Source of the DNA: Chlamydoabsidia padenii
Taxonomy: Eukaryota; Mucoromycota; Mucoromycetes; Mucorales; Cunninghamellaceae
DNA length: 64,000 nt
NCBI GenBank assembly: GCA_025330725.1
Contig: JAIWND010000002.1
Span: 1,854,501-1,918,500, forward strand
Direction of reading: 5' to 3'
The notes beneath the pieces are model-generated. The model searched no databases. It was not told the DNA's origin and saw only the letters and a list, made by a program, of their open reading frames with translations. Made by a program: the position numbers and the translations under genes. This document shows, piece by piece, positions 13,166 through 45,312 of this stretch (the first letter of the stretch is position 1; each line of letters starts with the position of its first letter).

Positions 13166-13531
13166 TATAGTGCCTAATCAAGTAAATAAAACAATGATTA
13201 GTACCAGGATAAACATATACAACTAACTAACTATATTCAAGGATGCAAATTACTTTGTTACGTAGGTAGATTAACGAATAGCAAGTCGATATGTCGATGG
13301 TAGGGTAATGCGTTTTGAAAAAGTGGAGAGCATTTGTTTTAGTTGGTCTATGTTTTTAAAAAGGGGGAGAGAAAAGAAAAGGAAGCAAGCCAAAAAAAAA
13401 AAAAGGCAGGACTAAAATACCAAAATCGGGATTTCAAATCACATTGATGTATTTGACTTTGATCGATTTTCGATTTTCGAATTCTTGCTTCTTTGCTCCT
13501 CTTTTTTTTTTTTTTCTTAATCAACTCAACT
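13166..13531. promoter_or_regulatory. Divergent promoter between the 62-aa gene and XAP5 (left copy)
   Basis: Intergenic 366 bp between two divergent starts. It contains AAAATCGGGATTTCAAATC (about 13421-13439), the reverse form of the recurring TTTGAAATCCCG element, about 95-110 bp upstream of the XAP5 ATG. The outer edge of the left arm of the inverted duplication falls here, at about 13415. Confidence 0.5.
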
Positions 13532-15053
13532 ATGGATTCTCAAGCTGAAGGCAACCGGCGCAAACAACTTGAAAAAGCTCGACAAAGGATTTATGAAGAA
13601 TCTGAAAAGGAGAAACAACGTATCATGAAGGTAAGTCTGCTAACTTTGACTGGTGTTAATCAAGGACTTGCTTACCTAACTTGACTTTGTTATTATAGAT
13701 GAACGAAGTACGTGTTGGCTCGGACAAGTTTGCTGCATCAACGACAGATATTGAATCACAACTCAAGACAAGCACCATTGGTCTCACCGAACTCTCTGAT
13801 TACCGTAAGATCCGTGAAAATCTGGAAGAACAACAAAAACGGGAGGCAGCAAAGACAGCGCCATTAGGGTAAGAAGACCATATTGTTTGACTTTTGTTGA
13901 TTAACTAACAAATACACACTTTATCTTGTATAACAGGGAAGAAAAAAAGAAGAAACGAAAGAAGAAACAAGTCTTGAAACTATCTTTTGCTGGAGACGAC
14001 GACGACAACGAAGGCGAAGACGAAACTCAAGAACAGCAACAAGACAACATCACCAAGAAGAAGAAAATGGCGAAGGATCCCAGCGTCAATACAAGCTTCT
14101 TACCTGATCGCGAAAGAGAAGAAGAAGAACGTAGAGAAAGGGAAAACTTGCGAAAGGAATGGCTGCAGAAACAAGAACTATTGAAAAGTAAGTAAAAAGG
14201 TCGGTAGGGGGTTATACCAACTAACTATTTATATTGTTTAACTAGATGAAAAGATTGATATTACATACTCATATTGGGATGGAACTGGTCATCGGAAATC
14301 TGTGGAGGTAACTAACTAAATGATGGGTAAAGAAATATGACTGAAATGACCTTGGACGACTAATCATACCTCCTTCTTTGATTTACATAGTGCAAGAAAG
14401 GGGACACAATTGCTCAATTCCTGGATAACTGCCGGAAACAGTTTCCTCAACTGCGGGCTGTTAATGTGGATAACTTGATCTACGTTAAAGAAGATTTAAT
14501 CATTCCTCACGTAAGTCCTAAATCAACAAAGGATTATATTACAACTAACTCTTTTTGATTTTAATCGACATGTAGCATTATACGTTTTACGACTTTATCA
14601 TCAACAAAGTACGAGGGAAATCCGGTCCTCTATTCAGCTTTGATGTACACGATGATATCCGGTTAGTGAATGATGCCACCATAGAAAAGGAAGAAGTAAG
14701 TTGGAAGACTACCATGATACTATAGATAATTGCATTGGTACTATACTAACCTTCTTGTTAACTTTTATAGTCTCATGCTGGTAAAGTGGTGGAACGAGGC
14801 TGGTATGAACGCAACAAACATATTTTTCCAGCAAGTCGATGGGAGACATATGAACACTCGAAGGATGTAAGTCGAATGGGGCATCGGATCTCATTTATAC
14901 TAACACTATTCTTTTATACTATAATTTTTTTTTTTTTTTTAGTATGGTGCTTACAGAATCAAGGATAGCCGGCAGTGATAGATAGTTAGATTAGTCTTGA
15001 TAATTGTTTTATTTGCTTTGTTATATAATAAAATGGGCGTTGATGTGTAATAG
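13415..15053. repeat. Inverted duplication, outer segment, left arm
   Basis: Nearly identical to the reverse complement of 43684-45312. It covers XAP5 with all introns. Homology fades within the XAP5 promoter at about 13415 and stops abruptly after TGATGTGTAATAG at 15053. Confidence 0.92.
13532..14978 (+). CDS. XAP5: XAP5/FAM50 family nuclear protein (left copy)
   Basis: Conserved nuclear protein linked to splicing and transcription in other eukaryotes. Eight exons: 13532-13630, 13699-13868, 13937-14187, 14246-14307, 14391-14510, 14576-14695, 14771-14866, 14943-14978. They sum to 954 nt (317 aa). The N-terminal half is a charged helix with lysine-rich KKKKRKKKQ and an acidic [10 protein letters not shown] tract. 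The C-terminal XAP5 domain shows [73 protein letters not shown] and ends [11 protein letters not shown]. This is the expected family architecture and length. An essentially identical copy lies at 43759-45200. Confidence 0.95.
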
Positions 15054-15447
15054 GGGGTGTTGATGTTTAATTGTTGTACCTGGATGTAATCGGCGCTTTA
15101 AAATTCAAACCTAGGCTGTGCTAACCCTTTAATGTTGCCCCTTTTATGGTAGCAAGACGATAAGATCAAAAGAGATGTGTAGGCAAAGAACTGTTTACTT
15201 GGTCGAATAATGTAATAGCTTTGATGTTGTATTAAACAATTCATGATGTTCCTTGCATTGTGAATATATGCATTCATGCATGAATACATCCAATGATGTT
15301 TACATGCGTAATGATATGTTTGCTTTGTAAACATCACATGGCTAGTTCCGATTCGTTCAAGTTATTTGGCGTTTTACAACTCCTCTTCCTTCTTTTCTCT
15401 TCTTCTTTTCTTCTTCTTCTTCCTATCTTCTCGACTTTGTGCATATA
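14979..15447. other. XAP5 3' flank and upstream region of the unknown gene
   Basis: The duplicated segment ends at 15053. Beyond it the sequence is unique to the left side, with a pyrimidine-rich CTTCTT tract (15385-15425) just before the next start codon. Confidence 0.5.
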
Positions 15448-16188
15448 ATGAGCTTTTTGACAACAAAAGGTGAGCCCTCTGATTTGAAAACCACTTTCCA
15501 TCATGATCGGACTTTGGCTACTGGCAGTCAATATTCCCCAGCACAACAATCCACCTCCTCGGCTTCCTTCCGAAGTAGCAACGATCATGCCCCCTCTCAA
15601 AGAAATGATCATAATCAAACTTTCGACAGTTTTACTCGGACGCCAAACACAGTACCGCTTTCTTTATCTTCAAACTTGCCGCCTCAACCACTAGTCAATC
15701 CCTCACAGCACCTACAGCTGGCAGCCTCATCACCCATGGATGGGTCTCAAGTCCTGGCTTTATTAAATGAATCATCAGGGGCTTATGATAAGGAGGTACA
15801 TGGTGATGATTTAGTGGCGGGCTCCATGTCTTACCAAAGCTATCAGCATCAGTCAGATCATCAGCATAGTTTGTCGGAATTTGAAATACAGAAGCGGCGT
15901 GCGATGGAAGAGTGGATTTTGACAGATGACATTATTGCATATATTGAGAAGCATGACTCTAGTTATGTGGACGATGTTTATGGGTTACCACCAGTGATTG
16001 CTAATTTGGTAAAGGAGGCGAAAGAGGAACTAAAGCAAGGCGGCGACGGTACCGATGGACAGCAAAAAGCGATAAATAGGCTGCAGATGATTAGAAATCA
16101 TTTGATTGGCCGATCTCGGGGAAATTTTACAATGGCAGTTCAACAAGGATTACAAATGAAAGAAGATGATTGGGCAGCTCTCTTTTAA
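15448..16188 (+). CDS. Uncharacterised protein (246 aa), present only on the left arm
   Basis: Single open exon with ATG at 15448 (MSFLTTKGEPSDL). An upstream in-frame GTG at 15439 is not a likely start. The first about 130 residues are Ser/Gln/Pro-rich and low in complexity. The C-terminal half looks folded and helical: RRAMEEWILTDDIIAYIEKH, SYVDDVYGLPPVIANLVKEA, INRLQMIRNHLIGRSRGN, ending EDDWAALF. I do not recognise the family. It sits in the block (15054-17310) where the two arms of the inverted duplication do not match, so it is single copy here. Confidence 0.7.
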   Translation: MSFLTTKGEPSDLKTTFHHDRTLATGSQYSPAQQSTSSASFRSSNDHAPSQRNDHNQTFDSFTRTPNTVPLSLSSNLPPQPLVNPSQHLQLAASSPMDGSQVLALLNESSGAYDKEVHGDDLVAGSMSYQSYQHQSDHQHSLSEFEIQKRRAMEEWILTDDIIAYIEKHDSSYVDDVYGLPPVIANLVKEAKEELKQGGDGTDGQQKAINRLQMIRNHLIGRSRGNFTMAVQQGLQMKEDDWAALF

Positions 16189-16629
16189 GTTTGTGGTAAC
16201 TTGGTCATATTATAAATAAATCACACTGCTTTAAAAATGATTTGTATACCAAACAAAAGGGCATGGTCCCTGAATTCCGGGTTGTGGAGCGCTATTTAAA
16301 TGATTGAATGAGCAGGATTACCTCTGCTACGGCAGAAACATCTAGTTCAGGCATAATGCAACATCAAAAGGCTATATGAACAAGTGATCAAAAGGGAGGA
16401 AAAGTCAACTAGTCGACTGCACATGCCTCCTTTTACCCCTAACGCATTGAGTTCATGAGTCACTCTTCCTCGGGTATTTCAAACGGCGCTTGGAAAGTAT
16501 TTTATCTTTGAATTTTTTTTTCTTTTTCTTTTTTCCTCTTTTCTTTTCTTTCCTCATTGTATTTATTCTCTTCATATCATATACCACATTGGAATAGAAC
16601 GATCAAACTTTAAGCCCCCAGTATCTAAT
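16189..16629. other. Intergenic stretch upstream of MATE (left)
   Basis: A polyadenylation-like AATAAA lies at 16215-16220. The pyrimidine tract 16500-16560 directly precedes the MATE leader. A weak TTTCAAACGGCGCTTGG copy of the recurring element lies near 16476. No gene. Confidence 0.5.
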
Positions 16630-18429
16630 ATGTCTAACAATAATATAAACTCAGAAAGATCGTCTTTACCCGGCGATCCTACTGAACGAACTCCTCTTGT
16701 CAACGCTTCTGGAAAGTTAGACTTTGATGTCTCTTCATGGAAAACAGAATTCAAGTGGTTGCTGAAGAACTGTATCCCTGTCATTGGAACCTACATGCTA
16801 CAAAACTCACTACAAATGGCTTCTATTTTTACACTTGGCCGACTTGGCGCTACTCAGCTTGCAGCAGCTGCCCTTGGATCTATGTTTGCTAGTGTCTCTG
16901 CTTGGAGTATCGCACATGGCATGACTACTGGTAAGTTTGTAGGGTGTTGAATATTGTTACTGATAGTCATCAAATACTAACTCCCTCCTCTTTTTTCTTT
17001 CTTTCTTTTTTTTTGTCATATCATATATAGCTCTAGATACTTTGTGTAGTCAGGCATGGACAGGAGCAAAGGACAAGACGTTGGTTGGTGTACATCTTCA
17101 ACGAGCATTGGTTATTTTGGCAATCATGTTTTTACCTATTGCAGGAATCTGGTGGAATGGTGAAAGAATTCTTTTGTCCTTGAATCAAGAACCTGATTTG
17201 GCAGAACATGCAGGTAAGCAACTAAATATCAAATCGGATTAAAAGTCGAATTACCGCCTATGATGATGCTTATGGAAATTAAATCTTATAACATTGATTA
17301 TGTTTTTTATAGGACTCTTCCTACGATATCTCATGATTGGTGCTCCTGCTTATATCGCCTTTGAAGCTGTCAAGAAGTATTTACAAGCACAAGGAATCAT
17401 GCAAGCGTCAACATATGCACTGATCATTGCATCACCTATTAATTTAGCCCTTAACTATACATTGGTGTACGTGGAACCCTTCAAGTTGGGATTTATTGGA
17501 GCTCCTCTTGCCACAAGCTTCAGCTACTGGTTGATGCTTCTCTTGTTACTCCTTTATATCAACTTTGTGGACGGTCTTGAAGCCTGGGGTGGATGGACTA
17601 AAGAATGTTTATCTGATTGGGGACCCTTTATTCGTCTCGGCTTACCCGGAGTTGTGGCTGTTTCAGTGGAATGGTGGTCTTTTGAACTCAGTGCTTTGGC
17701 GGCTTCTTATCTTAGCACCGTCGATCTCGCTGCTCAGTCAATCCTATTGACTTCTGGTGGTGCAACTTATACGATTCCATACGGTATTGCTGTTACTGTT
17801 TCTAATCGTGTGGGTAACTCTCTTGGTCAAGGCTGTGCTATCAAGGCTAAACGTGCATCCTCTATGGCTCTCATGTTTGCAGTTGTCTTTGGTACCCTCA
17901 ACTCACTCTTCTTCATCTTTACACGCTCTTGGTTCGGCTACTTGTTTACATCTGAAGAAGACGTCGTACAACGGGTTAGCGCAATTTTACCTCTTTGTGC
18001 TCTATTCCAAATCGCAGATGGGGCTGCTGGTGTCAGCAGGTAAAGGAAAAAAAAAAGAGTAGTGATTATGGTAAAGATGGAAACTAACTTTATGAAACTT
18101 GTATCAATAGTGGAATTATTCGTGGATTGGGACGACAAAAGGTAGCTGCATATCTCAATGTCTTTGCTTACTACGCTGTGGCTGCTCCCATTGGTTACTT
18201 GCTTACCTTCAAATTGGATTGGGCTTTAACAGGTTTGTGGACTGGTTTGACCATCGCTCTTTTCCTCAGTGCAACACTTCAAGTCGTCTTTTTATATATT
18301 GTTGATTGGCGTGCAGAAGCGAAGAAGATCCACCATCGTATCCAAGTTGCCGAACACAAATTGCACCATGATCAAAATGACGACGATGACGACTCCTTTG
18401 ACTCTGATGAACCATTACTGAATGCATAA
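16630..18429 (+). CDS. MATE-family multidrug/toxin extrusion transporter (left copy, intact)
   Basis: Proton- or sodium-coupled exporter of small organic compounds, a membrane protein with about 12 helices. Exons 16630-16930, 17031-17213, 17313-18039 and 18111-18429 sum to 1530 nt (509 aa). Recognisable parts: EFKWLLKNCIPVIGTYML, GATQLAAAALGSMF, ALDTLCSQAWTGAKD (the MATE ALDTLC signature), PAYIAFEAVKKYLQAQG, VSVEWWSFELSALAAS and a charged C-terminal tail with DDDDD and DEPLL. From 17311 the gene lies inside the near-identical inner arm. The first two exons lie in the diverged block and differ clearly from the right copy. Confidence 0.93.
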
Positions 18430-19169
18430 ACGAACTGGTGTAATAGAAACGACACTTAAAACAACAACTTCAACATCACCATAATTTGATTTGACCTATC
18501 TACACAATCTCCATCATCATTGCATTTTACCCTTTAACAGCCCTTTACTATTCTAGTTATAGTTATTATCTGCCTTTCGCACATCTTGTACTATTTTTAC
18601 ACAAATAAACTATTTATGAAAAAAAAAAAAACTCCTTGGTATACATACATGTGGTGACATACAAAGCTGATAATTAAAGCGGGTCAATGTCACTTTGTTG
18701 GGATCTCATCTCACTCTTACTCGAGCATAATGATTCACTTTCCAGGGAATGTCGTCCGCTATTTTAAACCCCGCGTCATGTACAATTTACCACTTCTGTA
18801 AAGTTGATCCATCTCAATGATGTAGGGGATGACATTTGTTGTTCTTCTATACTCCCAGCCAACTTTGTTAAGCCCAGACACTTGTATCTGTCAGGTCAGG
18901 CTTATGGTAGCATTCATTGATTATACATCTCTCCATCCTCTCCATGAAAGAGAAACAGAACAAAAAAATACTGTTTTCGAATCCCGCCACCCCAGTCAGA
19001 GTTGGAAAGGCCACTATTCACTCAATTGTCAACCGATGCTAATGATTAAAGTGACCAAAGTTTTTCTAATTTGCGTTCCCAACCAACTTTATTTAGAAAT
19101 CCAAGCCCTCAAACCGTTTTTTCAACGAATAATGGCTGAAAATCAAGATTCTTTTAGATGATGTGGTCA

Positions 19170-19217
<48 letters not shown>

Positions 19218-19737
19218 CAAAACTGGCACCTCGGATCAATATGAAAATTCAAATCTCGCCCAATTTAGAAAGGATTACATTATATTAGGTAACGTTTTTT
19301 CTTTTTTCTTTTCTTTTTTTTTGTTGTTGTCTGAGGAGTGAATAGTATGAATTGAGCAAGGTAGAAGAGAGAATGACAACTAGCCCATAGTCAAGATCCC
19401 CACCTAAACATTTCAAATCCCGCTTTTCGTTCGAGGTTCCCTTACCCGGAACACAGCTGCATAAAGTCTGTTCTTATTTTATTATGTTTCTTATCTATAC
19501 ATTAATGTGATACATCACTAACCCATTTAAAAACCAAAAAGTAAGAGTAATTTCAATAAAGTTTTATTTATAAAGGATAGATAAAAACAACAATAGATTG
19601 ATGTATGTATAACCAAGTAAAGGTGTTCGTAATATATATATATAGATCATAGAAGCATGATAAAAAATGGGAGGGGGGGAAGGAGTAAGGATTGTATAGC
19701 TAGACTTATAGGAGGGGAGGGGTTTTCTTTAAATATT
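18430..19737. other. Intergenic region between MATE and PYC 3' ends (left)
   Basis: Convergent 3' flanks. It holds a repeat dimer (18765-19160), several TTTNAAATCCCG elements (18763, 18973, 19247, 19411) and a T tract of about 46 at 19172-19217 that is clearly longer than its mirror (about 27 A at 39901-39926). No gene seen. Confidence 0.6.
18765..19160. repeat. Dispersed-repeat dimer (left arm)
   Basis: Two units start with AAACCCCGCG (18766) and GAATCCCGCC (18979), about 214 bp apart. The second carries the core CCGATGCTAATGATTAAAGT (19033) shared with 5794, 6034, 42760 and 43000. The first has GACACTTGTATCTGTCAGGT followed by CAGGC, similar to the 3' part of the units at 5.9 and 6.1 kb. 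It is mirrored at about 39940-40335. Confidence 0.55.
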
Positions 19738-21545
19738 CTAGGCATCAGCATCCTTGACAATACGGGCAACCAAATCACCTGTTGATAAAGAATCACCTTC
19801 GGCAATAGGGACATATTCGACTAGACCAGCGACAGGAGCAGAAACAATGGTTTCCATCTTCATTGCGCTTAGCACACACACTGGATCGCCTGCCTTGATA
19901 TGAGAACCAGATTTGGCACGGACTTCAACGACCACACCAGACATGGGAGCAGCGACTTCACCAGGTTTGCTAGAGTTGGCCTTTTCCCGAGTGACATGTT
20001 CGACAGCTGCATTTGTATCCACAATACCCACCACACGAGCTTCACCATTGAGTTCAAAGTACACATCACGTTTACCAGTATTGTTGATAGGTCCAACCGC
20101 CAATAACTTGATGATCAACGTTTTTCCTTCTTCAATTTCCACATGGAATTCTTCACCAATTTCCGGCTTGGATAAGAAGTAACGAGTAGGCACCTTGGAA
20201 AGATCACCATATTGATTAACCATATTGCGGTAGTCAGCAAAGACCTTGGGGTACAGGGCAGCAGAGACCACATCATAGTCACGGATGCTTTTACCATATT
20301 GTTGAGTCAATTCTTCCTTGAGCTTCGCCAAATCAAGAGGAGGTAAGGTTGCACCTGGGCGGCCATCGATACGTGGAAGATCGCGGATGATTTTCGAGCG
20401 CAAAGGTTCGGGGAATCCACCATGAGGCTGACCCAAGTAACCTTGGAAGAATTCAACGACAGATGTAGGGAAGGACAAGTTACCAGCGCGTTCAACCAAA
20501 TCATCACCATTCAATCCGTTGGACACCATGAATTGAGCCATATCACCGACAACCTTGGAAGAAGGAGTTACCTTGACAAGATCACCACACAGTTTGTTTG
20601 CTTCTTCATATGCTTTCTTGATTTGTTTCCACTGAGTACCAAGACCAAGTTGCTGAGCTTGGAACATGAGGTTAGTGTATTGGCCACCAGGCATTTCATG
20701 ATCGTAGACACCAGAATCAGCAGATTTGACGTTGGCTTCAAAGCAAGAGTACAACATACGGCATTGTTCCCAGTAAGAGTTGAGAGCTTGAATGTCTTCC
20801 ATACGGATACCAGTCCCCAAGTTGGTTTGCTCCAATCCAGCAACAAGAGCACCCATAGCAGGTTGAGAAGTCATACCAGACATGGAATCAATAGCAACAT
20901 CAATCACATCGGCACCAGCAGCAGCAGCGGCCATCATAGAGGCAACACCAGTACCAGCAGTATCGTGAGTATGGACGTGAATTGGTAGATCAGGGAATTT
21001 TTCACGGATGGCACCAATCAATAACTTGGCAGCTTCAGGTTTCAACACACCAGCCATATCCTTGATACCGAGAATATGAATACCTTCATTCACCAGTTCT
21101 TGAGTCAAATCGAGATAGTAGTTGAGGTCATACTTTTTCTTTTTAGGGTTGGACACATCACCAGTATAGCAAACAGTAGCTTCCACTACACCACCAGCTT
21201 TCTTGACAGCATCAATACCGAGTTTCATGTTTTCGACATAGTTGAGAGAGTCAAAGATACGGAAGATATCCATGCCCGCCTTGACTGCCTTGTCACAGAA
21301 TTCGTAAACGACATTATCAGGATAAGATGTATAACCCACAGCATTGGCACCACGGAGAAGCATTTGGAAGGGGATATTGGGCACAACCTTTCGGAGTTCG
21401 ATCAAACGGTCCCAAGGATCTTCATACAAGAATCGCATGGCGACATCAAATGTGGCACCGCCCCAACATTCAAGAGAGAAGGCATTGCTGAGAGCATGAG
21501 AAGTAGCAGGAGCAATACGAAGCAGGTCTAGAGTTCAAAAAGAAA

Positions 21546-21614
<69 letters not shown>

Positions 21615-23759
21615 TGAATCGATCGGAATTTTAATTGGACCCTGTACCTCTTTTTTTTTTTTTTTTTTATCATTTCTCCACTTACCAACAGTACGGACTC
21701 GAGTAGCCAACAGACTTTGATGAGCATCACGCCAAGTAGTATCCATAATCAATACACCAGGATAAGCACGGACAGCCTTGGCAAAAGCATCGGGACCTTG
21801 TTCGACAATGATTTTTCTCCAACCATCAGTAGGAGGGGCAGATACATCAACATTGTTACCATTATGACCACGGATGACAGGTACTTCGATTTCATGCTTG
21901 TAAGAAGGTTCACCAACTTGACCCTTGATTTGAGATCCATTGACAACAATATCCCCGAGGTAGCCCAAAAGACGCTGAGCACGGTTTTGGTATTGTACAA
22001 GACGGAAAAGGTCAGGAGTATCATCAATAAAAGTGGTCCAGCAGTTACCAGTCATGAATGTATCGTGAGTCAATAAGCGTTGCAAGAAGGGAATGTTTGT
22101 CTTGACACCACGGATACGGAATTCCACCAAGGCACGGACAATCTTGCGACGAGCGACTTCATAAGTAGATCCAGAGCAAGTACATTTGACAAGTAAAGAA
22201 TCATAATGAGGAGTAATGATAGCCCCAGCATAACCAGCTCCACCATCCAAACGTACACCATTACCACCAGATGATCGATAGACTTCAATCTTGCCAGTAT
22301 CAGGTTGGAAGTTCAATTCAGGGTCTTCAGTAGTAATACGACATTGGATAGCAAAGCCACGTTGACGAATTCTTTGTTGAGTCAAACCTAATTGAGGCAA
22401 AAGAGCACCAGCGGCAATTTGGATTTGAGCTGCCACAATATCAATCCCAGTAATTTCTTCGGTGATGGTGTGTTCGACTTGAATACGAGGGTTGATTTCA
22501 ATAAAGTAATGACGATTTTGACTGTCGACCAAAAATTCAGCAGTACCAGCATTTTTATACTTTACAGTTTTGGCAATTCTGACAGCATCGTTGAGAATGG
22601 CTTCACGCACAGCATTATCCAAGTTCTTCGCAGGAGCAATTTCCACCACCTTTTGATGTCGACGTTGGACCGAGCAATCACGTTCAAACAGATGGACCAC
22701 ATTACCAGCACGATCAGCAAGTAGTTGTACTTCAATATGGCGAGGCTTGTCCAAGAATCGTTCGATAAATACAGTTCCATCACCAAAGGCAGCCAATGCT
22801 TCAGATTTTGCACGATGGAAAGAGTCCTCCAGAGACGCTTCATCACGCACCACACGCATACCACGCCCACCACCACCCATAGCCGCCTTGATAATAATTG
22901 GGAATCCATGTTCTTGAATAAAGGCTTTGCATTCAGCGTATTCACTGACAGGACCAGGGGTACCAGGGACGACAGGGACCTTGCAATCCATAGCTATCAA
23001 GTAGTAGAATAGATACAAAAATAAAATTAAATAAAAAACAAGTTAGATGATTGATTGGGTAACAATATATATGTTATATTTTTCAATTACCAATTTGTCT
23101 TGCTTTAGTTTTATCACCGAGGCTATCAATCACTTCAGGTGTAGGACCAATAAAAGTAATACCAGCAGCTTCCACCTTTCGAGCGAATTCAGCATTTTCA
23201 GATAAGAAGCCATAACCAGGATGAATCATAGATACGCCTCGTTCTTTTGCAATCTTGACAATTTCATCTTGAGCCAAGTAAGCAGCCACTGGTGTATATT
23301 GTCCAAGTTGACCGATTTGATAGGATTCATCAGCCTACAAAAAAGTAATTCCCCAAAAGGAAACCAGTGTTAGTGATTCATCATTTCAATCGCCGCTTAA
23401 TTCATTTTTTTTTTTTCCCATTCTTACGTACCTTGTATCGATGCATCGAAAGTCTGTCTTCATGTGAGAAGATGGCCACAGTTCGCATAGAAAGTTCGTG
23501 AGCAGTACGGAAGACACGAATTGCAATTTCCTAAAAGTAAGAGAATTAGAATTAAAGTTAGAAGCCTTGGTATTTGTTTATGATTTCCCTACACACAAAA
23601 CAATACCTCATAACCTATATCAATCCCCCGCCCCCTTCTTGATCATATGATCAACACGATACTTACACCACGGTTAACCACCATCAGTTTTCGAAGATTT
23701 CCCATGACTTCGCTGTTTCGGCGAATGGTTTCAACTGAATGTTCACGTTGTTGAGGCAT
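19738..23759 (-). CDS. PYC: Pyruvate carboxylase (left copy)
   Basis: Biotin enzyme making oxaloacetate from pyruvate, bicarbonate and ATP; cytosolic in many fungi. Exons 23667-23759, 23432-23530, 23091-23334, 21686-22993 and 19738-21527 sum to 3534 nt (1177 aa), the normal family length. Biotin carboxylase domain: LMVVNRGEIAIRVFRTAHEL, MIHPGYGFLSENAEFA, IIKAAMGGGGRGMRVV, IEINPRIQVEHT. Carboxyltransferase domain: DTTWRDAHQSLLATRVRT, LECWGGATFDVAMRFL, MLLRGANAVGY, IHVHTHDTAGTGVASM. Biotinyl domain: VLSAMKMETIVSAP with the target lysine in AMKM. The last intron (21528-21685) carries an A tract of about 48. It has a full-length twin at 35378-39376; all base differences I found in the coding sequence are synonymous. 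Confidence 0.97.
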
Positions 23760-24714
23760 TGTTTTAGAATCAAAGGAAAGGCACCAAAGGAAGCGATAGA
23801 TATGTTATAAGGTCTATAATAGTAATGGTAAGATAAGAGAAGAGTTAAAAAAAAAAAAAAATGTCAGACCAGATTATTTTATACCCAACAAAATAACCAT
23901 CATCACCGCATTATGATCCTACCCCCACCCCCCCGCGACTACAATCACCATCATCTTGTACGCATACAACACCCCGATACAAACCGTATTTTTCATGCTG
24001 TAAAAGGATGAGACCGGAAAGCCATACTTTCCATGTTTGAATTCATATGTCATCATATGGAAACAGGGTCCGTCCCACATATCCAACCCTCTTTTTCTTT
24101 TCTTTCCCTCTATCCCCCATTTCTCTTGGTTTAATTGTTTTTGACATTACCTGAAGTATACAAAGGAAGTTGGAAGAATATGGTTATATATAAATAAATA
24201 AAAGATGGTTAACAGATTCCAAGTTCGTTAGAATCGGTGTAAAAAAAAAGAAAAAAAGAAAGATAAAACGAAAGAAAGAGGTGGAAATGGGAGCCATGAA
24301 AAATTTCCAGTTTTAAAAAAGAACAGAGAAACGATTTGCCGAGTCGGGATTTCAAATAATCCGCATACATTTGGTTCGATTTCTCATTGGAAGAATCGTT
24401 ACTTTATTATCATTGGCTATGCTCATTATTTTGGGGACATTTTCAAAACCGATCTATCTGTTTGTGGTGATACTGATTGTAAATCAAAAATTAAAATAAA
24501 AAAAAAAGATACTTTTAACAATAACAATTTAAAAAGACATTGAGTGATAACATGTTTTTATTAATCCATAAATAAGAGTATAAGGATATATATGTAGATA
24601 AAGATGATTTATTGACAACAACACTAATCAAACAACTAGACAACTGTGAGGAAGATTGTAAATACTATAAACTAAATGAGAATGAGGGTGAGAGGAGGAG
24701 AAGAGAAAAGTTTA
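23760..24714. other. PYC promoter and Kar9-like 3' flank (left)
   Basis: Intergenic 955 bp with no gene. An AGTCGGGATTTCAAAT element lies at 24342-24357, about 590 bp upstream of the PYC ATG. Poly-A/T and C-rich (CCCCCACCCCCCCGCG near 23921) stretches are present. Mirrored at 34424-35377. Confidence 0.55.
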
Positions 24715-27595: not shown

Positions 27596-28035
27596 GGTTT
27601 GTTACAAGTCTACTTTAAACAAAAGGGCGGGGGGGGGGGAAAGCAAAGTTAGTTAGTTATTCAACAATTGACCAACATCAAATGCATGCAACAAACAACA
27701 ACCCACTTTTTTTTTTTTTTTTTTTTTTTTTTCTTTTACCTTTTCCCAGTAATGCCAATAAAAGAGAAGGAAGGGGGTATGCGTAATGAGAATAACAACC
27801 AAAGTGTATTTAAAAGTGTATGAATAGGGTTGGGGTATATAATTATAAAAGAGGTAATAAGAATAAAGAGATGTTTAAGAAGGAAGAAGTGTAATAAACA
27901 AAGATCACAGAATCATGGAAGGGAAAGAGAGACAACAAAATGAAAAATTGGAGATAAAAATGGCCCGGTAACAAATATGTACTTTTTTTTATTGGGTGCA
28001 AAAAAAAAAAAAAAAAAAAAAAAAGAGAGGGTGCT
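27596..28035. other. Intergenic between Kar9-like start and GCN3 stop (left)
   Basis: Promoter of the Kar9-like gene and 3' end of GCN3. Two T/A tracts (27709-27732 and 28001-28024) and a G run (27630-27638). No gene. Mirrored at 31102-31542. Confidence 0.5.
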
Positions 28036-31101: not shown

Positions 31102-31542
31102 AGCACCCTCTCTTTTTTTTTTTTTTTTTTTTTTTTGCACCCAATAAAAAAAAGTACATATTTGTTACCGGGCCATTTTTATCTCCAATTTTTCATTTTG
31201 TTGTCTCTCTTTCCCTTCCATGATTCTGTGATCTTTGTTTATTACACTTCTTCCTTCTTAAACATCTCTTTATTCTTATTACCTCTTTTATAATTATATA
31301 CCCCAACCCTATTCATACACTTTTAAATACACTTTGGTTGTTATTCTCATTACGCATACCCCCTTCCTTCTCTTTTATTGGCATTACTGGGAAAAGGTAA
31401 AAGAAAAAAAAAAAAAAAAAAAAAAAAAAGTGGGTTGTTGTTTGTTGCATGCATTTGATGTTGGTCAATTGTTGAATAACTAACTAACTTTGCTTTCCCC
31501 CCCCCCCCCGCCCTTTTGTTTAAAGTAGACTTGTAACAAACC
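31102..31542. other. Intergenic between GCN3 stop and Kar9-like start (right)
   Basis: Mirror of 27596-28035. Polyadenylation-like AATAAA at 31144 is followed by the T-rich Kar9-like promoter. No gene. Confidence 0.5.
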
Positions 31543-34423: not shown

Positions 34424-35377
34424 TAAACTTTTCTCTTCTCCTCCTCTCACCCTCATTCTCATTTAGTTTATAGTATTTACAATCTTCCTCACAGTTGTCT
34501 AGTTGTTTGATTAGTGTTGTTGTCAATAAATCATCTTTATCTACATATATATCCTTATACTCTTATTTATGGATTAATAAAAACATGTTATCACTCAATG
34601 TCTTTTTAAATTGTTATTGTTAAAAGTATCTTTTTTTTTTATTTTAATTTTTGATTTACAATCAGTATCACCACAAACAGATAGATCGGTTTTGAAAATG
34701 TCCCCAAAATAATGAGCATAGCCAATGATAATAAAGTAACGATTCTTCCAATGAGAAATCGAACCAAATGTATGCGGATTATTTGAAATCCCGACTCGGC
34801 AAATCGTTTCTCTGTTCTTTTTTAAAACTGGAAATTTTTCATGGCTCCCATTTCCACCTCTTTCTTTCGTTTTATCTTTCTTTTTTTCTTTTTTTTTACA
34901 CCGATTCTAACGAACTTGGAATCTGTTAACCATCTTTTATTTATTTATATATAACCATATTCTTCCAACTTCCTTTGTATACTTCAGGTAATGTCAAAAA
35001 CAATTAAACCAAGAGAAATGGGGGATAGAGGGAAAGAAAAGAAAAAGAGGGTTGGATATGTGGGACGGACCCTGTTTCCATATGATGACATATGAATTCA
35101 AACATGGAAAGTATGGCTTTCCGGTCTCATCCTTTTACAGCATGAAAAATACGGTTTGTATCGGGGTGTTGTATGCGTACAAGATGATGGTGATTGTAGT
35201 CGCGGGGGGGTGGGGGTAGGATCATAATGCGGTGATGATGGTTATTTTGTTGGGTATAAAATAATCTGGTCTGACATTTTTTTTTTTTTTAACTCTTCTC
35301 TTATCTTACCATTACTATTATAGACCTTATAACATATCTATCGCTTCCTTTGGTGCCTTTCCTTTGATTCTAAAACA
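34424..35377. other. Kar9-like 3' flank and PYC promoter (right)
   Basis: Mirror of 23760-24714, with TTTGAAATCCCGACTCGG at 34782-34799. No gene. Confidence 0.5.
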
Positions 35378-37463
35378 ATGCCTCAACAACGTGAACATTC
35401 AGTTGAAACCATTCGCCGAAACAGCGAAGTCATGGGAAATCTTCGAAAACTGATGGTGGTTAACCGTGGTGTAAGTATCGTGTTGATCATATGATCAAGA
35501 AGGGGGCGGGGGATTGATATAGGTTATGAGGTATTGTTTTGTGTGTAGGGAAATCATAAACAAATACCAAGGCTTCTAACTTTAATTCTAATTCTCTTAC
35601 TTTTAGGAAATTGCAATTCGTGTCTTCCGTACTGCTCACGAACTTTCTATGCGAACTGTGGCCATCTTCTCACATGAAGACAGACTTTCGATGCATCGAT
35701 ACAAGGTACGTAAGAATGGGAAAAAAAAAAATGAATTAAGCGGCGATTGAAATGATGAATCACTAACACTGGTTTCCTTTTGGGGAATTACTTTTTTGTA
35801 GGCTGATGAATCCTATCAAATCGGTCAACTTGGACAATATACACCAGTGGCTGCTTACTTGGCTCAAGATGAAATTGTCAAGATTGCAAAAGAACGAGGC
35901 GTATCTATGATTCATCCTGGTTATGGCTTCTTATCTGAAAATGCTGAATTCGCTCGAAAGGTGGAAGCTGCTGGTATTACTTTTATTGGTCCTACACCTG
36001 AAGTGATTGATAGCCTCGGTGATAAAACTAAAGCAAGACAAATTGGTAATTGAAAAATATAACATATATTGTCACCCAATTAATCATCTAACTTGTTTTT
36101 TATTTAATTTTATTTTTGTATCTATTCTACTACTTGATAGCTATGGATTGCAAGGTCCCTGTCGTCCCTGGTACCCCTGGTCCTGTCAGTGAATACGCTG
36201 AATGCAAAGCCTTTATTCAAGAACATGGATTCCCAATTATTATCAAGGCGGCTATGGGTGGTGGTGGACGTGGTATGCGTGTGGTGCGTGATGAAGCGTC
36301 TCTGGAGGACTCTTTCCATCGTGCAAAATCTGAAGCATTGGCTGCCTTTGGTGATGGAACTGTATTTATCGAACGATTCTTGGACAAGCCTCGCCATATT
36401 GAAGTACAACTACTTGCTGATCGTGCTGGTAATGTGGTCCATCTGTTTGAACGTGATTGCTCGGTCCAACGTCGACATCAAAAGGTGGTGGAAATTGCTC
36501 CTGCGAAGAACTTGGATAATGCTGTGCGTGAAGCCATTCTCAACGATGCTGTCAGAATTGCCAAAACTGTAAAGTATAAAAATGCTGGTACTGCTGAATT
36601 CCTGGTCGACAGTCAAAATCGTCATTACTTTATTGAAATCAACCCTCGTATTCAAGTCGAACACACCATCACCGAAGAAATTACTGGAATTGATATTGTG
36701 GCAGCTCAAATCCAAATTGCCGCTGGTGCTCTTTTGCCTCAATTAGGTTTGACTCAACAAAGAATTCGTCAACGTGGCTTTGCTATCCAATGTCGTATTA
36801 CTACTGAAGACCCTGAATTGAACTTCCAACCTGATACTGGCAAGATTGAAGTCTATCGATCATCTGGTGGTAATGGTGTACGTTTGGATGGTGGAGCTGG
36901 TTATGCTGGGGCTATCATTACTCCTCATTATGATTCTTTACTTGTCAAATGTACTTGCTCTGGATCTACTTATGAAGTCGCTCGTCGCAAGATTGTCCGT
37001 GCCTTGGTGGAATTCCGTATCCGTGGTGTCAAGACAAACATTCCCTTCTTGCAACGCTTATTGACTCACGATACATTCATGACTGGTAACTGCTGGACCA
37101 CTTTTATTGATGATACTCCTGACCTTTTCCGTCTTGTACAATACCAAAACCGTGCTCAGCGTCTTTTGGGCTACCTCGGGGATATTGTTGTCAATGGATC
37201 TCAAATCAAGGGTCAAGTTGGTGAACCTTCTTACAAGCATGAAATCGAAGTACCTGTCATCCGTGGTCATAATGGTAACAATGTTGATGTATCTGCCCCT
37301 CCTACTGATGGTTGGAGAAAAATCATTGTCGAACAAGGTCCCGATGCTTTTGCCAAGGCTGTCCGTGCTTATCCTGGTGTATTGATTATGGATACTACTT
37401 GGCGTGATGCTCATCAAAGTCTGTTGGCTACTCGAGTCCGTACTGTTGGTAAGTGGAGAAATG

Positions 37464-37512
<49 letters not shown>

Positions 37513-39376
37513 TACAGGGTCCAATTAAAATTCCGATCGATTCACCTTCTTTTTTTTTTTTTTTTTTTTTTTTTTTTGAACTCTAGACCTGCTTCGTATT
37601 GCTCCTGCTACTTCTCATGCTCTCAGCAATGCCTTCTCTCTTGAATGTTGGGGCGGTGCCACATTTGATGTCGCCATGCGATTCTTGTATGAAGATCCTT
37701 GGGACCGTTTGATCGAACTCCGAAAGGTTGTGCCCAATATCCCCTTCCAAATGCTTCTCCGTGGTGCCAATGCTGTGGGTTATACATCTTATCCTGATAA
37801 TGTCGTTTACGAATTCTGTGACAAGGCAGTCAAGGCGGGCATGGATATCTTCCGTATCTTTGACTCTCTCAACTATGTCGAAAACATGAAACTCGGTATT
37901 GATGCTGTCAAGAAAGCTGGTGGTGTAGTGGAAGCTACTGTTTGCTATACTGGTGATGTGTCCAACCCTAAAAAGAAAAAGTATGACCTCAACTACTATC
38001 TCGATTTGACTCAAGAACTGGTGAATGAAGGTATTCATATTCTCGGTATCAAGGATATGGCTGGTGTGTTGAAACCTGAAGCTGCCAAGTTACTGATTGG
38101 TGCCATCCGTGAAAAATTCCCTGATCTACCAATTCACGTCCATACTCACGATACTGCTGGCACTGGTGTTGCCTCTATGATGGCCGCTGCTGCTGCTGGT
38201 GCCGATGTGATTGATGTTGCTATTGATTCCATGTCTGGTATGACTTCTCAACCTGCTATGGGTGCTCTTGTTGCTGGATTGGAGCAAACCAACTTGGGGA
38301 CTGGTATCCGTATGGAAGATATTCAAGCTCTCAACTCTTACTGGGAACAATGCCGTATGTTGTACTCTTGCTTTGAAGCCAACGTCAAATCTGCTGATTC
38401 TGGTGTCTACGATCATGAAATGCCTGGTGGCCAATACACTAACCTCATGTTCCAAGCTCAGCAACTTGGTCTTGGTACTCAGTGGAAACAAATCAAGAAA
38501 GCATATGAAGAAGCAAACAAACTGTGTGGTGATCTTGTCAAGGTAACTCCTTCTTCCAAGGTTGTCGGTGATATGGCTCAATTCATGGTGTCCAACGGAT
38601 TGAATGGTGATGATTTGGTTGAACGCGCTGGTAACTTGTCCTTCCCTACATCTGTCGTTGAATTCTTCCAAGGTTACTTGGGTCAGCCTCATGGTGGATT
38701 CCCCGAACCTTTGCGCTCGAAAATCATCCGCGATCTTCCACGTATCGATGGCCGCCCAGGTGCAACCTTACCTCCTCTTGATTTGGCGAAGCTCAAGGAA
38801 GAATTGACTCAACAATATGGTAAAAGCATCCGTGACTATGATGTGGTCTCTGCTGCCCTGTACCCCAAGGTCTTTGCTGACTACCGCAATATGGTTAATC
38901 AATATGGTGATCTTTCCAAGGTGCCTACTCGTTACTTCTTATCCAAGCCGGAAATTGGTGAAGAATTCCATGTGGAAATTGAAGAAGGAAAAACGTTGAT
39001 CATCAAGTTATTGGCGGTTGGACCTATCAACAATACTGGTAAACGTGATGTGTACTTTGAACTCAATGGTGAAGCTCGTGTGGTGGGTATTGTGGATACA
39101 AATGCAGCTGTCGAACATGTCACTCGGGAAAAGGCCAACTCTAGCAAACCTGGTGAAGTCGCTGCTCCCATGTCTGGTGTGGTCGTTGAAGTCCGTGCCA
39201 AATCTGGTTCTCATATCAAGGCAGGCGATCCAGTGTGTGTGCTAAGCGCAATGAAGATGGAAACCATTGTTTCTGCTCCTGTCGCTGGTCTAGTCGAATA
39301 TGTCCCTATTGCCGAAGGTGATTCTTTATCAACAGGTGATTTGGTTGCCCGTATTGTCAAGGATGCTGATGCCTAG
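35378..39376 (+). CDS. PYC: Pyruvate carboxylase (right copy)
   Basis: Exons 35378-35470, 35607-35705, 35802-36045, 36141-37448 and 37587-39376 sum to 3534 nt (1177 aa). Differences from the left copy that I found are all silent: GGA/GGG in the glycine-rich loop (36268 vs 22866), TTCCTG/TTTTTG about 36600, GGA/GGG about 36688, GGC/GGT at 38161 vs 20953, and GAT/GAC about 38318. The last intron's A and T tracts (about 42 A, then 27 T) differ in length from the left copy. Full catalytic and biotin motifs are retained. Confidence 0.97.
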
Positions 39377-40669
39377 AATATTTAAAGAAAACCCCTCCCC
39401 TCCTATAAGTCTAGCTATACAATCCTTACTCCTTCCCCCCCTCCCATTTTTTATCATGCTTCTATGATCTATATATATATATATATTACGAACACCTTTA
39501 CTTGGTTATACATACATCAATCTATTGTTGTTTTTATCTATCCTTTATAAATAAAACTTTATTGAAATTACTCTTACTTTTTGGTTTTTAAATGGGTTAG
39601 TGATGTATCACATTAATGTATAGATAAGAAACATAATAAAATAAGAACAGACTTTATGCAGCTGTGTTCCGGATAAGGGAACCTCGAACGAAAAGCGGGA
39701 TTTGAAATGTTTACGTGGGGATCTTGACTATGGGCTAGTTGTCATTCTCTCTTCTACCTTGCTCAATTCATACTATTCACTCCTCAGACAACAACAACAA
39801 AAAAAAAAAGAAAAAAGAAAAACGTTACCTAATATAATGTAATCCTTTCTAAATTGGGCGAGATTTGAATTTTCATATTGATCTGAGGTGCCAGTTTTGA
39901 AAAAAAAAAAAAAAAAAAAAAAAAAATGGTGACCACATCATCTAAAAGAATCTTGATTTTCAGCCATTATTCGTTGAAAAAACGGTTTGAGGGCTTGGAT
40001 TTCTAAATAAAGTTGGTTGGGAACGCAAATTAGAAAAACTTTGGTCACTTTAATCGTTAGCATCGGTTGACAATTGAGTGAATAGTGGCCTTTCCAACTC
40101 TGACTGGGGTGGCGGGATTCGAAAACAGTATTTTTTGTTCTGTTTCTCTTTCATGGAGAGGATGGAGAGATGTATAATCAATGAATGCTACCATAAGCCT
40201 GACCTGACTGATACAAGTGTCTGGGCTTAACAAAGTTGGCTGGGAGTATAGAAGAACAACAAATGTCATCCCCTACATCATTGAGATGGATCAACTTTAC
40301 AGAAGTGGTAAATTGTACATGACGCGGGGTTTAAAATAGCGGACGACATTCCCTGGAAAGTGAATCATTATGCTCGAGTAAGAGTGAGATGAGATCCCAA
40401 CAAAGTGACATTGACCCGCTTTAATTATCACCTTTGTATGTCACCACATGTATGTATACCAAGGAGTTTTTTTTTTTTTTCATAAATAGTTTATTTGTGT
40501 AAAAATAGTACAAGATGTGCGAAAGGCAGATAATAACTATAACTAGAATAGTAAAGGGCTGTTAAAGGGTAAAATGCAATGATGATGGAGATTGTGTAGA
40601 TAGGTCAAATCAAATTATGGTGATGTTGAAGTTGTTGTTTTAAGTGTCGTTTCTATTACACCAGTTCGT
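39377..40669. other. Intergenic region between PYC and MATE 3' ends (right)
   Basis: Mirror of 18430-19737. It holds the mirrored repeat dimer (about 39940-40335) and element copies at about 39704, 40112 and 40324. Single-base differences from the left arm are more frequent here than in genes (for example TAACGATTAAAG for TAATGATTAAAG in the repeat core). Confidence 0.55.
39940..40335. repeat. Dispersed-repeat dimer (right arm mirror)
   Basis: Reverse complement of 18765-19160, with at least three substitutions: in the repeat core, in the CTTGTATCAGTCAGG segment, and near 40430 just outside. Confidence 0.55.
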
Positions 40670-42450
40670 TTATGCATTCAGTAATGGTTCATCAGAGTCA
40701 AAGGAGTCGTCATCGTCGTCATTTTGATCATGGTGCAATTTGTGTTCGGCAACTTGGATACGATGGTGGATCTTCTTCGCTTCTGCACGCCAATCAACAA
40801 TATATAAAAAGACGACTTGAAGTGTTGCACTGAGGAAAAGAGCGATGGTCAAACCAGTCCACAAACCTGTTAAAGCCCAATCCAATTTGAAGGTAAGCAA
40901 GTAACCAATGGGAGCAGCCACAGCGTAGTAAGCAAAGACATTGAGATATGCAGCTACCTTTTGTCGTCCCAATCCACGAATAATTCCACTATTGATACAA
41001 GTTTCATAAAGTTAGTTTCCATCTTTACCATAGTCACTACTCTTTTTTTTTTTTTTTTTTTTTTTTTTTCCTTTACCTGCTGACACCAGCAGCCCCATCT
41101 GCGATTTGGAATAGAGCACAAAGAGGTAAAATTGCGCTAACCCGTTGTACGACGTCTTCTTCAGATGTAAACAAGTAGCCGAACCAAGAGCGTGTAAAGA
41201 TGAAGAAGAGTGAGTTGAGGGTACCAAAGACAACTGCAAACATGAGAGCCATAGAGGATGCACGTTTAGCCTTGATAGCACAGCCTTGACCAAGAGAGTT
41301 ACCCACACGATTAGAAACAGTAACAGCAATACCGTATGGAATCGTATAAGTTGCACCACCAGAAGTCAATAGGATTGACTGAGCAGCGAGATCGACGGTG
41401 CTAAGATAAGAAGCCGCCAAAGCACTGAGTTCAAAAGACCACCATTCCACTGAAACAGCCACAACCCCGGGTAAGCCGAGACGAATAAAGGGTCCCCAAT
41501 CAGATAAACATTCTTTAGTCCATCCACCCCAGGCTTCAAGACCGTCCACAAAGTTGATATAAAGGAGTAACAAGAGAAGCATCAACCAGTAGCTGAAGCT
41601 TGTGGCAAGAGGAGCTCCAATAAATCCCAACTTGAAGGGTTCCACGTACACCAATGTATAGTTAAGGGCTAAATTAATAGGTGATGCAATGATCAGTGCA
41701 TATGTTGACGCTTGCATGATTCCTTGTGCTTGTAAATACTTCTTGACAGCTTCAAAGGCGATATAAGCAGGAGCACCAATCATGAGATATCGTAGGAAGA
41801 GTCCTAAAAATATAGTCGAATGTTAAATTAGTATATATGATAGTACCCATAATCAGTTTCTCGTTCCTTTTTACATTTCATATCAATTTAGCTTCATCTA
41901 TTTACCTGCATACTCTGCCAATTCAGGTTCTTGATTTAATACCAATAGGATACGTTCACCATTCCACCAGATTCCTGCGATAGGTAAAAACATGATTCCC
42001 AAAACAATCAATGCTTGTTGAAGATGTACACCAACCAAAGTCTTGTCCTTTGCCCCTGTCCGTGCCTGGCTGCACAAGGTACCCAAAGCTATGTTATTGT
42101 AAATGTGCCAATCATATAATGAGAAGAGAGAATCAGTAAATTTTTAGTGCCAGAAGAAGGTGGTGATAAATTGGAGGGGGGGCTCCTTCAATTCAGCTTA
42201 CCTGTAGCCATTTCATGTGCAATGCTCCAAGCATAAACTCCAACAAACATAGATCCAAGAGCAGCTACCGCAAGCTGGGTCGTTCCAAATTGTCCTAGTG
42301 TAAATACGAGGTAATCTGTAAAGATTGTTGTAACAAGTAGGTCCCAATGACAGGAATGGAATTCTTCAATAGCCACTTGAATTCGATTTCCCAAGAGGTA
42401 TCGCAGTCCGAAATTGTAGAGTCGTTGAGTAAAGGGGTTTGTTCAGTCAT
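40670..42450 (-). pseudogene. MATE transporter, right copy, frameshifted in exon 1
   Basis: The 3' half (exon 3 onward, 40670-41805) is nearly identical to the left copy. The 5' half (41806-42450) is only a diverged homologue: it starts MTEQTPLLNDSTISD, then SWEIEFKWLLKNSIPVIGTY. Exon 2 reads TLCSQARTGAKDKTLVG with several amino-acid changes. In exon 1 the sequence TCGTATTTACACTAG (about 42295-42310) lacks one base relative to the left CTATTTTTACACTTG. Translation from 42450 therefore stops at that TAG, while the continuation (FTLGQFGTTQLAVAALGSMF) is in another frame. Intron sequences are not alignable between copies. It is a hybrid of a distinct, decaying MATE 5' half and a homogenised 3' half, unless the missing base is a sequencing error. 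Confidence 0.8.
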
Positions 42451-43683
42451 AATGTCGGGTATAGGAGAATATCATGATGAAGTCGGAGTATTGTTGGCCA
42501 TATCAGATGATGAGTGTGTTTTTACAGTTTTTCCGTTCATTTGGTGTATAACGTCGTAAACAGCATGAAGAATGGAGAAGAGGAAGAGGAAGAGAAATAA
42601 AAAAATAAATCAGGAATAAAAACAAACCTTTCCCTTCCCCCAAAATTCACGTAAATTGAACTTCCGACAGACTTTGAAAGAAAAAATTTACAGCAAACCC
42701 CGCTTACCATCACCTTGAATCTTAAGAGAGCTCTATTGTCTCAGTAAACAAGTGATGCTAATGACAAAAGTGACCGTGTGCATTCCTTAGCCTATTTCCA
42801 ACAAACTTTTACATAATGACCAATGTACCAAGTCCACTTTATAGAGCAGTATAGCCTCAAGATCGTTTTAGCCTGACTTTTGTGAATAAAAAGTTGCAGA
42901 ATAAAAATTGACACACGAGACAAAACTTAATTCAAAACCCGCTTACTATCGCCTGGAATCTTAAGAGAGCTTTACTGCCTTAATGAACAAGTGATGCTAA
43001 TGACAAAAGTGACCATGAGCATTCCTTAGCCTATTTCCAACAAATTTTACATCATGGCCATTGTGCGAAGTACCTTTTATGGAGCTAAACGGCCTTACGA
43101 TTGTTTTAACCTGACTTTTGTGAAATAAAAGGATGTAGAATGAAATTGTGTTTTGAGGCGATTCAACGGTACTCATTTTCAAGTCTGGTCGGGGTTCAAA
43201 TTACGCGATTTCTGGGGGAAGGGGAAGGCTCGTGGAATAAAATATTGACAAGCGCCGTTTAAATGTATTCTGTAAAAAGAACATTTTGTTGTGCTGTCGG
43301 TCGTTTGATTGTTCGAATAGTGGAGCAGAATCCAGAGGCATAATCCTTTCCTTGGCATGGTACTTGCTACCTTTAATGTAAAATCCCGCTTTTCAGTTGA
43401 CATGTGGTTCCTGTCTCAAATGGCATCATCACCTTCAAGCTTTGCGATTCAATCGTATCTTGAAAAATAATGCAAACCCAAAGAAGAAGAAAATCGTGCA
43501 GCTAAATGACCTTAAATCGTCTGTGGTCGATCACATAACCCCATTGGCATCATCGCCATTTTGTTTTATTCCCTTTTTAGCTTCTTATATTAGATGAGCA
43601 ATCACTGGTGTTAGTTCATTAATAATGCGACACTTCAAAGTCCAATACAGCAATGGCACTTCATGGTTCCCCTATTCATATTT
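42451..43683. other. Right-arm-specific non-homologous block
   Basis: Occupies the position of the left arm's 15054-16629, which encodes the 246-aa protein, but has no such gene. It contains a 239-bp-period tandem repeat and a TAAAATCCCGCTTTTCAG element (43381). No coding sequence recognised. Confidence 0.65.
42695..43146. repeat. Tandem dimer of the ~240-bp dispersed repeat
   Basis: Direct copies 239 bp apart: CTTACCATCACCTTGAATC (42703) and CTTACTATCGCCTGGAATC (42942). Each is headed by an AAACCCCGC/AAAACCCGC element. Each has GTGATGCTAATGACAAAAGT, GCATTCCTTAGCCTATTTCC and TTTTA(G/A)CCTGACTTTTGTGA in the same order. The period is the same as at 5.8-6.2 kb. Confidence 0.8.
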
Positions 43684-45312
43684 CTATTACACATCAACAC
43701 CCATTTTATTATATAACAAAGCAAATAAAACAATTATCAAGACTAATCTAACTATCTATCACTGCCGGCTATCCTTGATTCTGTAAGCACCATACTAAAA
43801 AAAGTTATAATATAAAAGAATAGTGTTAGTATAAATGAGATCCGATGCCCCATTCGACTTACATCCTTCGAGTGTTCATATGTCTCCCATCGACTTGCTG
43901 GGAAAATATGTTTGTTGCGTTCATACCAGCCTCGTTCCACCACTTTACCAGCATGAGACTATAAAAGTTAACAAGAAGGTTAGTATAGTACCAATGCAAT
44001 TATCTATAGTATCATGGTAGTCTTCCAACTTACTTCTTCCTTTTCTATGGTGGCATCATTCACTAACCGGATATCATCGTGTACATCAAAGCTGAATAGA
44101 GGACCGGATTTCCCTCGTACTTTGTTGATGATAAAGTCGTAAAACGTATAATGCTACATGTCGATTAAAATCAAAAAGAGTTAGTTGTAATATAATCCTT
44201 TGTTGATTTAGGACTTACGTGAGGAATGATTAAATCTTCTTTAACGTAGATCAAGTTATCCACATTAACAGCCCGCAGTTGAGGAAACTGTTTCCGGCAG
44301 TTATCCAAGAATTGAGCAATTGTGTCCCCTTTCTTGCACTATGTAAATCAAAGAAGGAGGTATGATTAGTCGTCCAAGGTCATTTCAGTCATATTTCTTT
44401 ACCCATCATTTAGTTAGTTACCTCCACAGATTTCCGATGACCAGTTCCATCCCAATATGAGTATGTAATATCAATCTTTTCATCTAGTTAAACAATATAA
44501 ATAGTTAGTTGGTATAACCCCCTACCGACCTTTTTACTTACTTTTCAATAGTTCTTGTTTCTGCAGCCATTCCTTTCGCAAGTTTTCCCTTTCTCTACGT
44601 TCTTCTTCTTCTCTTTCGCGATCAGGTAAGAAGCTTGTATTGACGCTGGGATCCTTCGCCATTTTCTTCTTCTTGGTGATGTTGTCTTGTTGCTGTTCTT
44701 GAGTTTCGTCTTCGCCTTCGTTGTCGTCGTCGTCTCCAGCAAAAGATAGTTTCAAGACTTGTTTCTTCTTTCGTTTCTTCTTTTTTTCTTCCCTGTTATA
44801 CAAGATAATAAAGTGTGTATTTGTTAGTTAATCAACAAAAGTCAAGCAATATGGTCTTCTTACCCTAATGGCGCTGTCTTTGCTGCCTCCCGTTTTTGTT
44901 GTTCTTCCAGATTTTCACGGATCTTGCGGTAATCAGAGAGTTCGGTAAGACCAATGGTGCTTGTCTTGAGTTGTGATTCAATATCTGTCGTTGATGCAGC
45001 AAACTTGTCCGAGCCAACACGTACTTCGTTCATCTATAATAACAAAGTCAAGTTAGGTAAGCAAGTCCTTGATTAACACCAGTCAAAGTTAGCAGACTTA
45101 CCTTCATGATACGTTGTTTCTCCTTTTCAGACTCTTCATAAATCCTTTGTCGAGCTTTTTCAAGTTGTTTGCGCCGGTTGCCTTCAGCTTGAGAATCCAT
45201 AGTTGAGTTGATTAAAAAAAAGAAGAGGAGGAAAGAGGCAAGAACTCGAAAATCGATCAAAGTCAAATACATCAATGTGATTTGAAATTCCGATTTGGGT
45301 ATTTGTGGCATG
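43684..45312. repeat. Inverted duplication, outer segment, right arm
   Basis: Reverse-complement partner of 13415-15053, nearly identical through the XAP5 gene. Near the outer edge the promoter begins to diverge (AATCGGAATTTCAAATCAC against AATCGGGATTTCAAATCAC), and homology is lost by about 45312. Confidence 0.92.
43759..45200 (-). CDS. XAP5: XAP5/FAM50 family nuclear protein (right copy)
   Basis: Same exon structure and protein as the left copy, read on the minus strand from ATG 45200 to TGA 43761. Introns match almost base for base; the A tract in the last intron is shorter. The start is divergent from NBS1 (ATG 45362) over 161 bp, whereas the left copy faces the 62-aa gene, so each XAP5 copy shares its promoter with a different neighbour. 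Confidence 0.94.

Follow-up and report, generated by a model that had tools for sequence, protein, structure and literature searches.

Human and ape Y and X palindromes consist of long inverted arms that are more than 99% identical, a likeness credited to arm-to-arm gene conversion (PMC3723533, PMC8981503), and maintained inverted repeats in Caenorhabditis carry head-to-head paralogues on near-perfect arms (PMC1803023). In yeast and mammals, long inverted repeats that are near-perfect and have a short spacer are reported to be unstable (PMC1803023). Inverted repeats also occur in fungal nuclear DNA, namely at yeast centromeres, for example those of Candida tropicalis (PMC4741521). Here we describe a large palindrome with a 192-bp centre in Chlamydoabsidia padenii, in a 64-kb stretch of contig JAIWND010000002.1 (assembly GCA_025330725.1, contig positions 1,854,501 to 1,918,500); we call this whole stretch the window and use its numbering for all positions, except where the contig is named.

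We place this locus in the known class of conversion-maintained palindromes, as it has the long inverted arms and short spacer of that class. In contrast to the Y and X palindromes it is fungal, no sex chromosome is known to be involved, its genes serve general metabolism and translation, and a diverged block lies between identical ones. The Caenorhabditis structure shares the head-to-head gene pair and the short spacer (126 bp in the worm, 192 bp here), but the worm arms measure about 2.2 kb against 12.1 kb here, and the worm structure was compared across species whereas ours is known from the DNA of one species. Unlike the yeast centromeres, it has gene-dense arms and, as its centre, a 192-bp spacer between a pair of GCN3 genes. 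No earlier report of this palindrome was found among titles and abstract openings of the literature on fungal palindromes or on the organism.

Structure of the palindrome

The structure was read from one assembly of one isolate, and the genome searched comprises 34.2 Mb in 95 contigs. Self-comparison and alignment place the left arm at 13,412-29,471 and the right arm at 45,307-29,664, each about 16 kb, on either side of a non-palindromic centre of 192 bp (29,472-29,663). Two inverted matches were detected by self-comparison: an inner one of 16,681-29,471 against 42,447-29,664 (97.4% identity over 12,873 columns) and an outer one of 13,372-15,053 against 45,346-43,684 (96.7% over 1,685 columns). 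Inverted matches this long are far beyond anything that chance can account for. An initial annotation had claimed a mirror-image duplication with a 192-bp centre at this site, and this is confirmed by both methods; its further claim, that the arms are near-identical over 12.1 kb and 1.6 kb and diverged in between, is borne out by the arm alignment.

From the outside inward, each arm runs through an outer block with the XAP5 gene, a diverged middle block and a 12.1-kb inner block before reaching the centre. The outer block occupies 13,412-15,053 on the left (plus strand; XAP5 with its ATG at 13,532 and its stop near 14,978) and 43,684-45,307 on the right (minus strand; ATG at 45,200, stop ending at 43,759). 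The middle block spans 15,054-17,312 on the left (plus strand, 2.3 kb) and 41,804-43,683 on the right (minus strand, 1.9 kb), and the inner arms lie at 17,313-29,471 (plus strand) and 29,664-41,803 (minus strand). According to the alignment the inner block has sharp edges, at 17,313/41,803 (with three to five matching splice-site bases in addition) and at 29,471/29,664. The switch from diverged to identical sequence at 17,313/41,803 falls on the 3' splice site that precedes exon 3 of the MATE gene. At the other end, the two GCN3 start codons, at 29,460 (minus strand) and 29,675 (plus strand), each lie 11 bp within their own arm, and the genes point outward from the centre. Judged by base composition alone, the inner arms (GC content 0.405-0.406) are somewhat richer in GC than the flanks (0.375-0.385).

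The inner arms differ by 20 substitutions in 12,089 aligned bases, which makes them 99.8% identical; the alignment also lists 15 gaps between them, one being a mere overhang of the chosen range. The outer block has four gaps and 17 substitutions in 1,621 aligned bases, and eight of these substitutions crowd into the first 95 bp.

Probable arm-to-arm exchange and the diverged middle block

The two middle blocks barely align, introns and spacer included; their remnants are collinear, and both blocks derive from one ancestral locus. The left block holds MATE exons 1 and 2 and a conserved small gene (15,448-16,188, plus strand) for a 246-aa protein with no assigned function. This sixth gene of the arm, absent from the earlier gene list, is intact on the left only, and relatives of it were found in Absidia glauca, A. 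cylindrospora, A. repens, Halteromyces, Cunninghamella, Gongronella and Hesseltinella (11 proteins listed, that of C. padenii included). The right block holds a broken MATE 5' half, a repeat insertion and a relic of the small gene with an internal stop (43,541-43,613, minus strand). The relic matched the small gene by blastn of block against block (73 bp, 72.6% identity, E 5.7e-7) and by tblastn against the window (E 0.003). The insertion is an interspersed repeat (42,627-43,228, plus strand) with terminal inverted repeats of about 54 bp and inner tandem units; it has at least 107 genomic matches, its own place included (40 of 365 candidates scored), and no clear target-site duplication was seen by eye beside it.

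The MATE gene crosses the edge of the middle block. The left copy (16,630-18,429, plus strand) is open, has Pfam support and encodes 509 aa in four hand-drawn exons (16,630-16,930, 17,031-17,213, 17,313-18,039 and 18,111-18,429). In the right copy (40,670-42,501, minus strand) exons 1 and 2 are diverged and broken by an early stop and a shifted frame. Left and right are 72.3% identical over 296 bp in exon 1 and 86.3% identical over 183 bp in exon 2, where NG86 estimates over 60 codons gave a nonsynonymous divergence (dN) of 0.085 and a synonymous divergence (dS) of 0.456. The low dN/dS suggests that the right gene was under selection during part of its history and then broke. In exons 3 and 4 the two copies encode the same protein, and the one substitution between them, in exon 3, is synonymous. 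The initial annotation had listed five genes as mirrored; their names hold by Pfam, but the right MATE is not a second intact gene.

We consider it probable that this locus is an old inverted duplication whose arms have been kept alike by conversion, the heterologous middle block having escaped. Which change came first is conjectural, but we infer that conversion was at work and that heterology formed its barrier from the following pattern: (i) old copies are near-identical outside one block, in noncoding DNA too, and the 3' half of a dead gene has been kept, which argues for homogenisation between the arms; (ii) the 5' and 3' halves of the right MATE are discordant, and the preservation of its 3' half is not explicable by that gene's own function; (iii) beside the middle block, the identical tracts end in the alignment where local homology runs out and (iv) the remnants within the middle block are collinear. 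The annotation's proposal of an older duplication in which conversion skipped the middle block is supported by these observations. Under this model, a segment carrying XAP5, the small gene, MATE, PYC, KAR9 and GCN3 would have undergone inverted duplication in an ancestor of C. padenii, leaving the GCN3 pair head to head over a short shared promoter region. The arms would then have exchanged sequence more than once, in kilobase-sized tracts, by non-reciprocal recombination, either gene conversion or a switch of template from one arm to the other in the course of repair. Loss of homology on one arm, through the repeat insertion, the disappearance of most of the small gene and the drift of introns and spacer, would have halted strand exchange, and the 2-kb middle block may in this way have escaped and diverged, its right side decaying.

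Eight of the 20 inner substitutions fall within exons, as their borders were drawn by hand, and the other 12 outside them. All eight exonic changes are synonymous, as might be expected if purifying selection alone, without conversion, had kept old copies alike. However, the introns and intergenic DNA of the inner arms are near-identical as well, so we reject this scenario, which is also at odds with the retention of exons 3 and 4 by the broken right MATE; we find it barely credible. Repeat-induced point mutation was also considered and rejected, because the change lacks one-sidedness: 16 of the 20 inner substitutions are transitions, and by hand count the left arm has A or T at nine of these and G or C at seven, so that C-to-T changes are not confined to one arm.

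The placement of the inner substitutions bears both on conversion and on the assembly. All 20 lie within 17,650-23,061, the outer 5.7 of 12.2 kb, and the innermost 6.4 kb has none; if substitutions were placed independently, the chance of this would be about 3 in 10 million. Confinement to the outer part is as expected of separate conversion tracts. The clustering therefore means either that homogenisation of the inner part is more recent or that the assembly failed to separate the arms there. Weighing against our preferred explanation, the zone without substitutions may be a consensus artefact, and this zone, like the join at the centre, is read from the assembly consensus. Separate inverted copies could have been wrongly joined over the spacer, or the innermost arms built from one consensus, given that near-identical 12-kb inverted arms are difficult to assemble and that reads whose anchor is in one of the unique middle blocks may fall short of the 6.4 kb around the centre. 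We think such an error quite unlikely. The centre is ordinary non-palindromic sequence rather than a simple hairpin turn, and small gaps near it differ between the arms, although these are of one or two bases and at least one lies in a homopolymer. Moreover, the two middle blocks, with their unlike flanks, represent two distinct outer loci.

The flanks that were tested also speak against an assembly error, as they lack an allele-like second copy: no near-identical second copy was found of 8,500-13,300 or of 45,400-50,000 (40 of 120 candidates scored for the latter). Apart from itself, the right flank returned short repeat-like matches within that same search. The left flank, which carries LCAT and ribosomal uL5 genes (8,537-13,064), has a second copy at 1,234,646-1,239,563 of the same contig, 75% and 91% identical, that does not look like a palindrome allele. 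The initial annotation had raised the prospect of a fold-back or of joined haplotypes, for which duplicated flanks or a perfect hairpin centre would be the sign; neither appears in the flanks tested or at the non-palindromic centre. We graded the joining of two haplotypes as unlikely, in that the flanks do not match each other, the middle blocks are too different and allele-like flank copies are lacking.

Age of the left/right split

Relatives were compared as proteins. For MATE exons 1-2 we used a tree of 13 rows and 144 columns, rooted on the MATE of a distant GCN3-KAR9-MATE block of C. padenii. Here the right copy grouped with A. cylindrospora copy 1 (93/89) and the left copy with A. glauca (56/84). 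Forcing left and right into one clade was 10.6 log units worse, with p 0.037 in the approximately unbiased (AU) test. Over the same exons the left protein shows 92% identity with those of A. glauca and Halteromyces, and for A. cylindrospora copy 1 the figure is 88%; the right protein matches the Absidia-group rows at 74-80% and its left counterpart at 74%. By eye, exon 1 residues C and M set the left copy, A. glauca and Halteromyces apart from the right copy and A. cylindrospora copy 1, and Q and A in the exon 1-2 alignment are common to the latter two. In the later exons 7% of residues differ between the left copy and A. glauca, while left and right are the same in protein. The comparison of these sequences supports a left/right split that predates the split from A. 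glauca. Support for such an age is moderate, resting on the dS of exon 2 and the tree, as set against the 20 substitutions that separate the arms over the 12,089 aligned bases beginning with exon 3.

Several points weigh against an old duplication. The tree is moderate evidence of age because the right branch is long (0.42) and the stretch short, and the groups concerned lack starred support. The AU test is a single one, near 0.05, on a pair picked after the identity table had been viewed, and some exon 1 residues (for example G and H) are shared by right and left to the exclusion of A. cylindrospora copy 1. The right copy's grouping with A. cylindrospora could also reflect introgression. This last point leads to a different scenario, in which the inverted duplication is young and one middle block was later replaced by a diverged version, through introgression from an A. 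cylindrospora-like source or from a diverged allele. The grouping of right exons 1-2 and the 99.8% identity of the inner arms both fit this scenario, but a dS of 0.46 in exon 2 does not, and the right block, decayed and holding a repeat and a gene relic, does not look like a working gene newly transferred. The branch that separates it from A. cylindrospora is long, and a second event would be required whose inner edge coincided with the point where homology ends. On balance we judge a young duplication unlikely.

The old duplication that we prefer could be older still. It is possible, though doubtful, that it predates the whole Absidia-Chlamydoabsidia group and that A. cylindrospora keeps a right-type and a left-type copy of the pair. 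That species has two MATE proteins, with contigs given as 11.05 Mb for both. A palindrome in A. cylindrospora was considered and rejected: in the later exons the two proteins pair as sisters (92/97) on a long branch, and therefore give no support for recent homogenisation there. The KAR9 protein listings of relatives cannot separate one copy from two identical copies.

Gene content, copies elsewhere and biological meaning

Pfam supports PYC, MatE, KAR9 with GAS2, IF-2B (that is, GCN3) and XAP5 (PF04921) domains. The main exons of pyruvate carboxylase (PYC) lie at 19,738-23,042 (minus strand, two long open frames) and 36,092-39,376 (plus strand), the KAR9-like protein at 24,715-27,601 (minus, with a GAS2 domain) and 31,537-34,423 (plus), and GCN3 (eIF2B alpha) at 28,039-29,460 (minus) and 29,675-31,098 (plus). 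Genome-wide, with all candidates scored, PYC (PF02436) and XAP5 domains occur in the two arms only. Three inner-arm stretches each had exactly two near-identical genomic places, both in the palindrome: 24,000-27,000 (3,001 bases, 40 of 53 candidates scored), 17,313-18,900 (1,588 bases, 3 of 3) and a further one of 401 bases; no third near-identical copy was among the places listed in these searches. When the whole left arm served as query, 39 of 404 candidates were scored and those listed included neither that arm nor its inner mirror copy; the silence of this search on further copies is for that reason weak evidence. Within the arms, a short dispersed repeat at 18,946-19,058 and its mirror site has dozens of genomic matches.

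The distant GCN3-KAR9-MATE block mentioned above is diverged and lies at 1,340,179-1,347,788 of the same contig, 0.5 Mb away. No PYC match was found in it; it does not look like an allele of the palindrome and we take it as a sign that a segment or the genome was duplicated long ago. There is a second C. padenii MATE protein, 59% identical to the left MATE. In Apophysomyces, two KAR9/MATE pairs have adjacent locus numbers. An origin of the palindrome by tandem duplication and inversion is hinted at by the presence of Yippee and tRNA-His beside the distant block, and was set aside as too thinly evidenced. Beyond the arms, a dispersed repeat family at 48,633-49,095 adjoins a tRNA-Gly gene (49,146-49,217), and 5,761-6,172 contains a direct repeat whose two copies, each about 174 bp long, are 80% alike and lie about 240 bp apart.

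A palindrome of about 12 kb per arm thus carries the only PYC and XAP5 domain genes of this genome. Its mosaic of identical and escaped blocks maps the points at which exchange between the arms stops, and the kept 3' half of a dead gene tells conversion apart from selection. If the duplication did precede the whole Absidia-Chlamydoabsidia group, a palindrome of essential genes would have outlived several speciations in a fungal nuclear genome, its arms homogenised in each lineage. The palindrome could offer a natural setting in which to test, in a fungus, how heterology acts as a barrier.

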